Positions 12,456 to 23,180 of a DNA stretch of 23,872 bases are shown here, piece after piece. This DNA is from Candidatus Rokuibacteriota bacterium (lineage in GTDB: Bacteria > Methylomirabilota > Methylomirabilia > Rokubacteriales > JACPHL01). Numbering within the stretch: the first letter of the stretch is position 1; each line of letters begins with the position of its first letter. The notes under the pieces are model-generated. The model was not told where the DNA came from, searched no databases, and was given only the letters and a program-made list of their open reading frames with translations. The position numbers and the translations under genes were made by a program. The stretch spans positions 1-23,872 of the forward strand of contig JACPHL010000231.1 of NCBI GenBank assembly GCA_016188625.1. The letters are read 5' to 3'.

Positions 12456-12868
12456 GGCGGCACCAGCTCCTTCCGCACCCGATCGAGGACCCCGTTGATG
12501 AACCGCGTGGACTCCCCGGTGGAGAACTTCTTGGCGATCTCGAGGGCCTCGTTGATCGCGACCTTGGGCGGGATCTCGGAGCACCAGAGGAGCTCGTAAA
12601 TCCCGGCGCGGAGGATGTTCCGATCGACGACGGCCATCCGGGAGAGCTCCCAGCGATCGGCGAACTGGGCGAGGCACTCATCGATCTTGGCCTGATTCGC
12701 CTTGGTCCCCCGGACCAGCTGCTCGGCGAACGCCCGGACCTCCTGGCCCACCGGGTGCTCCGCCCAGAACGCCTCGATGGCGGCCGTGAGGGGATCCCCC
12801 TCCGGGAGGAGGTCGAGCCGGTAGAGGAGCTGCAGGGCCAGCTCGCGGGCCTTGCGGCGCCTGCCCAT
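12452..12868 (-). CDS. nusB: Transcription antitermination factor NusB
   Basis: RNA-binding protein that, with NusE (ribosomal protein S10), joins antitermination complexes on rRNA operons. It is 138 residues, the normal size, and all-helical in character. Recognisable blocks are the basic N-terminus MGRRRKARELALQLLY, the F-A-x-x-L-V-x-G block, and the C-terminal NEALEIAKKFSTGESTRFINGVLD signature. The ATG at 12868 shares one base with the ribH stop (TGATG), so the two are translationally coupled. The ribH-nusB pairing is common in bacteria. Its stop is part of the ATAA overlap with the downstream metallophosphoesterase. Confidence 0.95.
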   Translation of the reverse strand: MGRRRKARELALQLLYRLDLLPEGDPLTAAIEAFWAEHPVGQEVRAFAEQLVRGTKANQAKIDECLAQFADRWELSRMAVVDRNILRAGIYELLWCSEIPPKVAINEALEIAKKFSTGESTRFINGVLDRVRKELVPP

Positions 12869-13383
12869 CACCGCCCCCGCCCGCGCCGCCCCCGGCCCTT
12901 GGCCCGGACGGGCAGCCTCGCCATCAGCCCCACCAGCTCCAGCGCCGCCAGCGCGGCCTCCTCGCCGCGGTTGCCGACCTTCCCGCCCGCCCGGTCCCAG
13001 GCCTGGGCCTCGCTCTCCGCGGTCACCACCCCGAAGGTGGTGGGGACACCGGTGGCCAGGGCCACCTCCTGGATCCCGCGGGCGGCCTCCCGGGCCACAT
13101 GCTCGAAGTGGGGCGTCTCCCCGCGGATGACGACCCCGAGACAGATCAGGGCGTCGAAGCGGCCGCTCCGGGCCAGGCGGAGGGCGACCTGCGGGATCTC
13201 GAAGGCGCCCGGGACCCAGGTCACGTCGATGGCCGCGTCCGCGGCGCCGTGATCGCGGAGGGCCGCGAGGGCCCCCTCCAGGAGCCGGACCGTGATCGGC
13301 TCGTGGAAGCGGGCCACGACGACCCCGAAGCGCCGCCCCTGCCCCGCGGGCGCGCCGCGTCGCCCCGGCGCCCTCCCCGCCAC
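12868..13383 (-). CDS. ribH: 6,7-dimethyl-8-ribityllumazine synthase
   Basis: Condenses the pyrimidine intermediate from RibD with the four-carbon product of RibB to make the riboflavin precursor lumazine. It is 171 residues from GTG 13383. Core motifs are VVVARFHE near the N-terminus, the substrate-binding VPGAFEIP, VVIRGETPHFEHV with the catalytic histidine region, and GNRGEEAA. The GTG is chosen because the family core begins about 20 residues later and upstream codons belong to the mosaic repeat. No clear Shine-Dalgarno precedes it; an open frame through the repeat stops two bases before it. The C-terminus ends in an unusual Arg/Gly/Lys-rich tail (...RAKGRGRRGRGR). It is coupled to nusB through a TGATG junction. 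Confidence 0.93.
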   Translation of the reverse strand: MAGRAPGRRGAPAGQGRRFGVVVARFHEPITVRLLEGALAALRDHGAADAAIDVTWVPGAFEIPQVALRLARSGRFDALICLGVVIRGETPHFEHVAREAARGIQEVALATGVPTTFGVVTAESEAQAWDRAGGKVGNRGEEAALAALELVGLMARLPVRAKGRGRRGRGR

Positions 13384-13385
13384 GG

Positions 13386-13684
13386 CTAGGAAACTCCGAG
13401 GGGGGCTCCGCCCCCCTTCGGATGGCCCCGCGGGAGGCGTCGGCCCCTCGCTCCACACGCTCCACGGCGCACCCGCCTATGGCTCGCCGGCCGGGGCCCC
13501 TCCTGGTCGTGTCCCGCCCGCGAGCCGGCTTCCCCACCCGGCTCGCTCATGGCGGGGACCCGCGCCGCTCCGCTTAACGTTCCGCTCGGGGCCGACGCCC
13601 CCCCCGTAGGGACCGGTCGCTCTTCCACGACCGGGCTCGGGGCCTGCCGCCCCCCAAAGCCCTTACCCGGACACATTTCTAGCC
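13386..13684 (-). repeat. Mosaic intergenic repeat, copy B (between ribBA and ribH)
   Basis: This fills most of the 361-bp gap between ribBA and ribH. On the plus strand: a left module with a GGGGGGC-TCC-GCCCCCC hairpin (about 13391-13421, with about 50 bp missing relative to copy A), a core (about 13435-13598) and a right module (about 13631-13683). The left and right modules match copy A in the same orientation, but the core is the reverse complement of copy A's core at about nine in ten positions by eye. The core ends are short inverted repeats (GGGAGGCGTCGGCCCC against GGGGGCGTCGGCCCC). A hairpin (GAGCCGG...CCGGCTC) is conserved in the core. The remaining 60 bp next to ribBA (13685-13744) show nothing I recognise. 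Confidence 0.85.
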
Positions 13685-13744
13685 CCGGGGCGGGAGGTCC
13701 GACGTGAAGCGGTTCGTGCGGTGCGGCGTCGTGCAACGGGCCGC

Positions 13745-14977
13745 TCAAGGCTTGGAGAGGAGGTGGCCGAGCTTCTCCTGCTTGGTCTTGAGGTAGAACC
13801 GGTTCGCCTCCGAGGGGGAGATCTCGATGGGGACCCGCTCCTCGACCCGCAGGCCGTACCCCTCCAGGCCCACGATCTTCTTGGGGTTGTTGGTCAGCAG
13901 CCGCATCGACCGGACGCCGAGGTCCACCAGGATCTGCGCCCCGATCCCGTAGTCCCGGAGGTCGGCCTTGAAGCCCAAGGCCTCGTTGGCCTCCACCGTG
14001 TCCTTCCCCTGGTCCTGGAGCTCGTAGGCCCGCATCTTGTTCAGGAGGCCGATCCCCCGCCCCTCCTGGCGCATGTAGATGAACACCCCCCGCCCCTCGC
14101 GGGCGATGATGGCCAGCGCCTTCTCGAGCTGCTCGCCGCAGTCGCAGCGTCGCGAATGGAAGACGTCGCCGGTCAGGCACTCGGAGTGGACGCGCACCAG
14201 GATCGGCGCCGGGTCGGCGACGCCCCCCATGGTGAGGGCCAGCGGAAGCCGGTCGTCGATGGTGGTCTCGTAGGCGATGGCGGTAAAGGTGCCCAGCGGG
14301 GTCGGGAGCGCGGTGGTGGCGACGCGGCGGACCAGCTTGTCCTTCTGGATCCGGTAGCGGATCAGGTCCTTGATGGTGATGAGCTTGAGGGCGTGGGCCT
14401 GGGCCAGCTCCGCGAGGCGGGGGACGCGGGCCATCCGCCCGTCGTCGTTCATGACCTCGCAGATCACCCCCGCCGGGTAGAGCCCGGCCAGGCGGGCGAG
14501 GTCCACCGCCGCCTCGGTGTGCCCGGCCCGCCGGAGGACGCCCCCGGGCATCGCCCGGAGCGGCAGGATGTGCCCGGGGCGGGTCAGATCCTCGGCGCGC
14601 GTGGCGGGGTCGACCAGGGTCCGGATGGTCACGGCCCGGTCGTACGCCGAGGTCCCGGTGCTGACCCCGCGACGCGCGTCCACGGTGACGGTGAAGGCCG
14701 TCCCCATGGGCGCGGTGTTGTCGGAGACCATCATGCTGATCTTGAGCTCGTCGAGCCGCTCCCCGGTCATGGGGACGCAGATCAGGCCGCGGCCGTGCTT
14801 GGCCATGAAGTTGACGGCCTCCGGGGCGACCTTCTCGGCGGCCATGACGAGGTCGCCCTCGTTCTCCCGATCCTCGTCGTCCACCACGACGACGATCCGG
14901 CCGTTCCGGATCTCCTCGACGGCCTCCTCGATGGGCGCGAACATCCCCCCGGGCTCCTCCCGGGACGGCGTGGTCAT
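13745..14977 (-). CDS. ribBA: Bifunctional 3,4-dihydroxy-2-butanone-4-phosphate synthase / GTP cyclohydrolase II
   Basis: Makes both starting materials of riboflavin: the four-carbon unit from ribulose 5-phosphate, and the pyrimidine from GTP. It is 410 residues, the usual fusion length. The RibB half (about 12-210) contains [12 protein letters not shown] (33-44), [19 protein letters not shown] and the E-V-M-N-DDG block. The RibA half (about 215-405) has the zinc ligands C267, C278 and C280, the RQEGRGIGL loop (303-311) and the TNNPKK motif. The ATG at 14977 overlaps the ribE stop (ATGA). M12 is a possible alternative start because the family core begins there. Downstream it is separated from ribH by repeat copy B. 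Confidence 0.95.
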
Positions 14978-15627
14978 GGCTCCTCCCTCCCGTCCTCGGC
15001 CAGGAGCCCGCGCCGGGCGAGCGCCTCCCGCCCCTCCCCGCTCCCCGGGAGCAGGGCCCGGACGTACTTGCCGAGGACATCCATCTCCAGATTCACCCGG
15101 TCGCCGCCCTGTCTCGAGCCCAGGGTCGTACTCTCGAGGGTGTGGGGGATCAGGGCGACGGCGAAGCCCTCGGGATCGAGGCGCGCCACCGTCAGGCTGA
15201 CCCCATCGACGGCGACCGAGCCTTTCGGGATCAAGAGCGCGCGGAGGTCCTCCGAGACCGCGACCCCCAGCGCCCGTCCCTCGCCCTCCTCACGGACCGT
15301 CGTGACGACCCCGACCCCATCGACATGGCCGAGGACGAGGTGCCCGCCGAGCGGGGCGCCGAGGCGCAGCGGTCGCTCCAGGTTCACGGGGTCACCGGGC
15401 GAGAGCGCCCCGAGGGTGGTCACGGCGAGGGTCTCCTCGGCCAGATCGAAGCCGAGCCACCCCGCCCCCGTCGCCACCACGGTCAGGCAGGCGCCGTTGA
15501 CGGCAACGCTCCCCCCGGGTTCGCTCCCGTCCAGGACCCGGCGCGCCTCCACCTCGAGCCGCCACCCCGCCCCCCGCCGGGTCAGGGCCCGCACGCGCCC
15601 GAGCTCCTCGACGATCCCGGTGAACAC
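14974..15627 (-). CDS. ribE: Riboflavin synthase, alpha subunit type
   Basis: Dismutates two lumazine molecules to riboflavin plus the RibD/RibH pyrimidine. It is 217 residues with two tandem lumazine-binding domains: the first from [11 protein letters not shown] with VNGACLTV, the second from about residue 95 ([13 protein letters not shown]) with VDGVSLTV and IPHTLESTT. The family begins MFTGIVE, and here the codon is GTG at 15627, which is therefore the start. Reading further upstream enters repeat copy A. There is no good Shine-Dalgarno, and an open frame through the repeat ends in TAG one base before the GTG. The stop overlaps the ribBA start. The name follows the convention in which ribE is riboflavin synthase (ribC in E. 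coli). Confidence 0.93.
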
Positions 15628-15628
15628 C

Positions 15629-15979
15629 CTAACCAACTCGGAGGGGGGCTCCGCCCCCCTTCCGAACCTCCCCCCAAGGCTGCGAGGGCAAAGCCCGCGC
15701 CCGGAGCGGACCATCCCCGCGGGGAGGCGTCGGCTCCGAGCGGAGCGTGAAGCGGAACGGCGCGGGTCCCCGCCATGAGCGAGCCGGGTGGGGAAGCCGG
15801 CTCACGGGCTGAGAACGAAGGAGGAGGGGCCCCGCCCGGCGAGCCACAGGCGGGTGCGCCGTGGAGCGCGCGGAGCGAGGGGCCGAGGCCTTCCCCGGGG
15901 GCGTTCGGTCTCCAGAGAACGGACGGGCCTGCCGGGGGGCAGCACCCCCAAAAGCTTTACTCGGATACATCTCTGCGCT
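15629..15979 (-). repeat. Mosaic intergenic repeat, copy A (between ribD core and ribE)
   Basis: Longest copy of the element. On the plus strand: left module (about 15635-15714) with the GGGGGGC-TCC-GCCCCCC hairpin and a GGGCGCGGGC-type second stem, core (about 15726-15888), and right module (about 15924-15978) containing CTGCC-GGGG-GGCAG. The left and right modules are in the same orientation as copy B, while the core is inverted. On the minus strand an open frame from ATG 15970 (GGAG seven bases upstream) to TAG 15629 crosses the element. A matching frame in copy B shares its first residues (M-[YC]-P-[SG]-K-[AG]-F-G-G) and its last ones (KGGGAPL). The middles are unrelated because of the inversion, so I regard it as repeat DNA rather than a proven gene. 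It overlaps the present 3' end of ribD. Confidence 0.85.
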
Positions 15980-16896
15980 CCAGATCGGTCCACCAACCCC
16001 GCCTCGAGGAGCGAGGCGTGCAGTTCGCCCCCGCCTTCCGCGAGGAGCGACACCACGCCCCGCCGGGCGAGCTCGGCCAGGAGGGCATCGAGGTCCACCC
16101 GGCCGTCGCGGGCCGGGCAGCCGAGGACCTCGACGCCCCGCGCGGAGAGGGCTCGGGCGGCCTCGGCCGGAGCGCCGGCGACGCAGGCGATCAGGGTCCG
16201 CGCCGGGGCGCCCACCTTCAGAAGCCGCGCCTCGGGGGGCGTCCGGAGCCGGCTGTCCACGACCACGCGGAGCGGCTCCCGGGGCCCGAGCTCGGGGAGC
16301 CGGACCGTCAGCTCCGGGTCGTCCCGGAGGACGGTCCCGACCCCGACGAGGATGGCGTCGGCGCCGGCCCGCATCCGGTGACCCTCGGCCCGGGCCGCCT
16401 CCCCCGTGATCCAGCGGGAGGCCCCGTCCCAGGCCGCGATCTTCCCGTCCAGGGTCATGGCCGTCTTGAGGGTCACCAGGGGGCGCCCGGTGGCGATGAA
16501 CTTGAAGAAGGCGCGATTGAGGACCCGGGCCTCTTCCTCCCGCACCCCCACCGTGACCTCCACGCCCCGGCCGTTGACCACCGGGTTGGGGTCGAGGCAG
16601 CCGACGACGACCCGCCGGATCCCGGCCTCGAGCAGGGCATCGACGCAGGGCGGGGTCCGGCCGCGGTGGACGCACGGCTCGAGGTTGACGTAGAGGCTCG
16701 CTCCCCGCGCCTCGGGCCCGGCGGCCCGGAGGGCCTCGACCTCCGCGTGGGGCTCGCCGGCCCGCCGATGCACCCCTTCGCCCACGGCCGCCCCGTCGCT
16801 GACTACCAGGGCGCCCACCATCGGGTTGGGCGAGGTGAGGCCCCGCCCCTGCGCGGCCAGGGCGAGGGTCCGGCCCATCCAGGCGTGATCGTCCAT
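15802..16896 (-). CDS. ribD: RibD deaminase/reductase with repeat-encoded C-terminus
   Basis: Bifunctional enzyme: deaminates the GTP-derived pyrimidine, then reduces its ribosyl side chain. The open frame gives 364 residues. The zinc deaminase domain is intact: H50-A-E52, then C75 and C84 in EPCVHRGRTPPC. The reductase domain starts near 140 with RPLVTLKTAMTLDGKIA and includes ILVGVGTVLRDDP and LLAEGGGELHASLLEAGLVDR (ending at 304). After R304 family similarity stops. The next 60 residues, Arg/Pro-rich, are read through repeat copy A, replacing the final strands and helix normally following L-V-D. The overall length is normal only by coincidence. Start ATG 16896 lies 2 bp after the ftsY stop. 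The deaminase is probably functional; the reductase is uncertain. Confidence 0.88.
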   Translation of the reverse strand: MDDHAWMGRTLALAAQGRGLTSPNPMVGALVVSDGAAVGEGVHRRAGEPHAEVEALRAAGPEARGASLYVNLEPCVHRGRTPPCVDALLEAGIRRVVVGCLDPNPVVNGRGVEVTVGVREEEARVLNRAFFKFIATGRPLVTLKTAMTLDGKIAAWDGASRWITGEAARAEGHRMRAGADAILVGVGTVLRDDPELTVRLPELGPREPLRVVVDSRLRTPPEARLLKVGAPARTLIACVAGAPAEAARALSARGVEVLGCPARDGRVDLDALLAELARRGVVSLLAEGGGELHASLLEAGLVDRSGAQRCIRVKLLGVLPPGRPVRSLETERPRGRPRPLAPRAPRRTRLWLAGRGPSSFVLSP

Positions 16897-23044: not shown

Positions 23045-23180
23045 CGTCCGAGTAACGGGTGCGCTCGTGCGTTTTTGGACCCTCGGCTCGCGGATCGGGT
23101 GGTCCGCTCCGGGCGCGGGCTTGGCCCGCGCACCCTCGGGGGGAGGTTCGGAAGGGGGGCGTTAGCCCCCCTCCGAGGCA
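23045..23180 (+). repeat. Mosaic intergenic repeat, copy C (core-less, after secA)
   Basis: Starts two bases past the secA stop. On the plus strand a short right-module relic (GTCCGAGTAAC at about 23046-23056) is followed by a nearly complete left module (23100-23177). That module is about 90% identical by eye to the reverse complement of the left module of copy A, including the G6C/GC6 hairpin and the GGTCCGCTCCGGGCGCGGGCTT stretch. The 165-bp core is absent, and the orientation relative to transcription is opposite to copies A and B. Together with the inverted repeat above, it makes up the 286-bp secA-CPBP gap. Confidence 0.75.

Follow-up and report, generated by a model that had tools for sequence, protein, structure and literature searches.

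Two mosaic repeats in the rib operon

The stretch of DNA analysed here, referred to as the window, comprises 23,872 nucleotides of contig JACPHL010000231.1 from a Candidatus Rokuibacteriota MAG of 2.6 Mb with 344 contigs and 84.5% completeness. Gene calling was based on codon usage, with a finder that had the window as its training set. The rib operon of the window lies on the minus strand throughout and contains two repeats in the order ribD, right copy, ribE, ribBA, left copy, ribH and nusB. The left copy (about 13390-13676) occupies the gap between ribBA and ribH, and the right copy (about 15634-15970), 2 kb away, that between ribD and ribE. These are the gaps named in an earlier note on this DNA, where the left copy was called B and the right copy A, and the gene assignments made there hold. 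The note had described flanking modules in the same orientation around a core that is reverse-complemented at about 89% identity. In full agreement, the two cores match as reverse complements with 88.9% identity over 180 nt, far beyond chance (E = 1.6e-65), and the flanking modules L and R keep their orientation, L with 93.5% identity over 31 nt (E 4e-10) and R with only 80% over 30 nt (E 3e-4). The ends of the left-copy core are inverted repeats (GGGAGGCGTCGGCCCC / GGGGCCGACGCCCCCC) and those of the right-copy core are less alike, also as described before (Table 1).

Two features had been overlooked. In the right copy, L and the core are separated by a further hairpin, module X, so that the two frames are not otherwise equivalent, and a related element consisting of L and X without a core is present on the minus strand near the end of the window, where it begins a few nucleotides past the stop codon of a SEC-C/SecA-like gene. 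When the sequences are compared by eye, the right copy resembles the left half of such an L-X element (type Q) joined to a core and to the right half of a second core-less type, L-h1-h2-R (type P).

Table 1 Modules of the repeat elements in the window
Feature	Position	Strand or orientation	Remarks
Left copy, module L	13390..13422	+	GC hairpin GGGGGGC-TCC-GCCCCCC; adjoins ribH GTG start; 93.5% to right-copy L
Left copy, core	13432..13603	+ (orientation defined as + here)	Terminal inverted repeats 13432-13447 / 13588-13603
Left copy, hairpin h2	13609..13634	+	GGACCGGTCGC..CGACCGG; same place as h2 in core-less P elements
Left copy, module R	13636..13676	+	Terminates ..CCCGGACACAT
Right copy, module L	15634..15665	+	Exact L pattern match; adjoins ribE GTG start
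Right copy, module X	15665..15716	+	Hairpin with loop CAAAG, ~52 nt; no counterpart in left copy
Right copy, core	15722..15894	- (opposite to left core)	88.9% to left core over 180 nt
Right copy, hairpin h2	15901..15924	+	Sequence unlike left-copy h2
Right copy, module R	15925..15970	+	Terminates ..CTCGGATACAT; within RibD reading frame
Third element, core-less Q type	23045..23178	-	L, X and 3' end GTTACTCGGACG; 91% identity with L+X of the right copy (81 nt)

RibD lacks approximately the last 42 positions of its C-terminal reductase domain, exactly where the right copy starts. The match to the RibD_C domain ends at 15985, near the end of R at 15970, and covers positions 1-155 of the 197 in the model; the match to TIGR00326 likewise stops, at position 296 of 343. 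The reading frame continues for 166 nt (about 55 codons) into the right copy on the minus strand, up to a stop codon at 15802. This RibD_C domain is the only one in the MAG, and the truncated protein is either a functional oddity or it reflects a pseudogene or a mis-join.

A genome-wide family of discrete cores and interchangeable modules

The MAG was surveyed by pattern searches combined with retrieved sequence stretches, with reversed patterns serving as control. Allowing up to three mismatches, we found 78 sites for the 22-nt 5' end of the core and 145 for the L hairpin, with none for either reversed control; one variant of R gave 10 sites. The 70 distinct core copies that were collected include 54 of full length (median 175 nt in the coordinates used). 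The match between them is bounded by GGGAGGCG.../...CGCCTCCC. Beyond these ends the copies often have nothing in common, which marks the core as a discrete unit. Proximity to a contig end is five times as frequent among core copies as expected (24 of 70 versus 4.6), and the copy number is therefore a minimum. Six cores (L101, L149, L088, L153, L170 and L151), two of them near a contig end, lose the match at a shared internal position, 70-75 of 174 (..GGGGCCCCTCC); the half-core may be a separate module.

Viewed in the core's own frame, L (27 cases), R (7) or module S (6) adjoins the 5' side, and L with or without X (17), X alone (5) or R (9) the 3' side. All four combinations of end modules occur. 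The arrangement of the left copy, L-core-R, was seen five times and that of the right copy, R-core-L with or without X, three times; L-core-L with or without X was found four times and R-core-R once, and other cores are flanked by neither module. If the core flipped within a fixed frame, neither L-core-L nor R-core-R would arise. The earlier note had proposed that core orientation be tabulated relative to the flanks across the whole genome: it varies, as L and R occur on either side of the core. Elements of L...R architecture also exist without a core. These type P elements show 12 distinct middle parts, and in copies of this type that do carry a core, the core stands in the place of h1.

Of 58 other genomes that belong to the order, 54 have L-like hairpins; as for the core, nothing beyond short partial matches turned up in them. 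A search of 84,980 species genomes with the exact core 22-mer hit one contig, which is binned as Candidatus Wallbacteria (L148, JACPRK010000024.1, 6903-7010). There, a single core is cut by the contig end and the 4.5-Mb bin contains no other copy, which suggests misbinning or transfer as the likely source. Plasmid and viral contigs gave no match.

The core forms a single long hairpin and shows intrinsic strand polarity

Covariance folding had also been proposed in the earlier note. RNAalifold predicts one long hairpin for the core, and on the core tree 13 same-branch co-changes were counted over 37 pairs, compared with 0-2 when the partners were slid; the pairs with most co-changes are 59:136 (six) and 62:134 (four). 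The hairpins of X and of the P elements likewise keep their complementarity across copies despite quite different stem sequences. Just outside the core ends, the sequence is inverted-complementary above the level of shuffles (4.34 versus 3.96, 6 nt with offsets; reached in 0 of 500 shuffles). One core (L188) has a wholly different terminal stem, which is still complementary (CTCGGCGCCGGGCGCCCC / GGGGCCCCGGCGCCGAG). The core, present in about 80 copies, is thus a palindromic unit whose structure is conserved and which can be linked on either side to L, X, R or further modules.

The strand opposite to the + orientation of the core folds better in 50 of 50 full copies, whatever the direction of the neighbouring genes, and its advantage averages 22 kcal/mol versus 12 in composition shuffles. 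Unpaired transitions in the stems are mostly A-C and not G-T on the + strand (81 versus 23, drawn from few columns and not independent), which agrees with a strand polarity intrinsic to the element. Owing to this polarity, the rib transcript carries the better-folding strand of the core in the left copy (-116 kcal/mol, z -4.9) and the weaker one in the right copy (-85 kcal/mol, z -1.7). Rfam models gave no match at gathering thresholds, and a riboswitch or another known structured RNA was rejected on this ground.

Elements fill gaps between genes and end at stop codons

No called gene spans a core. Neighbouring genes run along the core direction in 16 cases and against it in 16, are convergent in 12 and divergent in two. 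The 16:16 split of core orientation relative to transcription speaks against a core that functions strand-specifically as RNA within host transcripts. Divergent gaps account for two of the 78 gaps that hold a core or L, and for seven of the 39 other gaps of at least 60 nt (p = 0.006). Where the gene on the L side ends toward L (39 cases), L follows its stop codon after 0-6 nt in 28 and overlaps with it by 1-2 nt in four others, and the distance from the end of R to the stop codon of the facing gene is 2-17 nt in 10 of 14. The elements thus fill gaps between tandem or convergent genes, with their ends a few nucleotides from stop codons. A consensus scan revealed no U-tract or classical intrinsic terminators.

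Two candidate insertion signatures were rejected. CTAG at both ends of some elements had prompted the idea of a CTAG target-site duplication; stop codons of all kinds precede L (n = 61), among them 24 TAA, 11 TGA and 17 TAG, 11 of the latter as CTAG. A fixed direct repeat, ACTCGGA, at both ends was considered as an insertion target; with only 10 near-exact sites of the 3'-end motif, solo targets were not demonstrable.

Relation to known repeats and possible origin

REP and BIME sequences are high-copy extragenic palindromes arranged in mosaics, with GTAG- and CGTC-tagged REPs (PMC3733652, PMC2817692), and are mostly found between tandem or convergent genes, less than 20 bp from the stop ends of the flanking genes (PMC3733652). 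The family described here shares the copy number, the extragenic palindromes combined in mosaics and the placement between tandem or convergent genes near stop codons, and in both cases compensatory mutations preserve the palindromes (PMC3733652, PMC2817692). It differs in that the core measures about 173 nt, as opposed to a palindrome of 20-40 nt in REP, and in that neither a conserved GTAG at the terminus nor a CGTC tag free of pairing could be recognised: other copies do not share the GTAG next to the left core, and the CGTC at the core end varies and is base-paired. No RAYT (Y1_Tnp, PF01797) was found in the ~84% complete MAG. With BOX elements of Streptococcus pneumoniae, the family has in common that it is intergenic, composed of separable modules with a variable middle and structured if transcribed (PMC3049150). 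However, it is GC-rich and unrelated in sequence, and its end modules are interchangeable on both sides, whereas BOX consists of boxA and boxC around boxB units (PMC3049150). Taken together, we are fairly confident that the elements represent a dispersed, non-coding intergenic repeat of BIME/BOX-like character whose modules (L, X, h1/h2, R and the ~173-bp core) are GC-rich hairpins. Against this reading, a search for a mobilising enzyme, which covered Y1 transposases, found none, and no target-site duplication was seen.

In principle, the core could instead be a classical MITE that is moved by the DDE transposase of an insertion sequence with matching ends (GGGAGGCGTCGG) and has entered pre-existing L...R elements either way round. 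Its terminal inverted repeats, high copy number, and non-coding and intergenic nature would fit, as would the precision of its ends against varied flanks and the position of the left-copy core, which is that of h1 in core-less P elements. MITEs such as Correia elements, RUP and YPAL/RU-2 are also folded, measure 100-200 bp and are able to extend reading frames (PMC2229807). However, direct repeats at the core ends are not above shuffled pairing and thus provide no target-site duplication, the immediate flanks of the core are complementary in inverted orientation and do not form direct repeats, and the core is GC-rich and not A+T-rich, without TA ends or a known partner IS. No autonomous partner was seen in the 84% complete MAG with a search that covered Y1 transposases. 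We regard a MITE origin as unlikely, albeit worth keeping in mind.

A further reading, of low probability, is that the repeat is copied via a single-stranded intermediate, and that the enzyme responsible is one so far not associated with repeats of this kind. This would be in line with the exchange of whole hairpin modules at fixed positions (h1 for the core; stems with all pairs compensated), with ends flush with stop codons and with a folded-strand preference that is independent of host transcription.

Opposite core orientation in the rib operon is probably due to modular assembly

The earlier note had offered three readings of the opposed cores, an invertible module, one past inversion and independent modular assembly, of which the last is supported and the other two are not. 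A core that flips between its terminal inverted repeats by site-specific recombination, switching rib expression on and off, would fit the inverted repeats of about 16 nt at the core ends, which are present in the left copy and in the family consensus, and the occurrence of cores both ways round relative to L and R. Yet it is from these inverted repeats that the base of a single long covarying hairpin is formed, and flipping the core of one rib copy would not produce the other: X separates core and L in the right copy, L abuts the core in the left, and the frames differ by h2 as well. Copies with L or R on both sides have no defined frame at all, the flanks being combinatorial. No sigma-70-type promoter-like site was detected in 12800-16700 and, in line with the earlier note, the window genes examined include none for a recombinase. 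No result emerged in favour of an invertible module, and we consider such a switch highly improbable.

A single past inversion or gene conversion between the rib copies might be suspected because the same operon holds both, at a distance of 2 kb and with their cores inverted, but it is largely refuted by the core sequences and has very little to recommend it. The two rib cores are no closer than random pairs (89.0% identity versus a mean of 90.0% over 1225 pairs). The nearest relatives of the left core reside on other contigs (95.9%), those of the right core are different ones (93.6%), and each ranks low in the similarity list of the other, 24th and 14th of 49. In addition, the right copy has an extra module, and both architectures recur at other loci on other contigs. 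An assembly artefact, in which core orientation or copies were mis-joined, would accord with a repeat that breaks assembly, as evident from the accumulation of cores near contig ends, but is scarcely credible given that the copies differ by about 10%, that rib gene order runs on across both of them and that both architectures are present on other contigs. The cores in the rib operon are therefore most probably opposed because modules were assembled in several ways and directions; throughout the family, core orientation relative to L and R varies by assembly and not by switching.

Implications

As a modular, BIME/BOX-like repeat, the family probably acts on the 3' ends of mRNAs, as judged from placement and structure. 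Co-transcribed elements would form stable 3'-end hairpins, and these could make the upstream mRNA more stable or, in operons such as rib, dampen read-through. The elements may spread as non-autonomous units, and recombination or copying between hairpins may swap modules.

What had appeared to be a DNA switch is thus resolved as modular repeat assembly. The truncation of RibD suggests that such elements can reach into core metabolic genes. The family provides a worked example of hairpin mosaics that lie flush with stop codons and in which one module has undergone lineage-specific expansion, and the order-wide occurrence of the L hairpin makes the evolution of 3'-end elements directly comparable over many MAGs.
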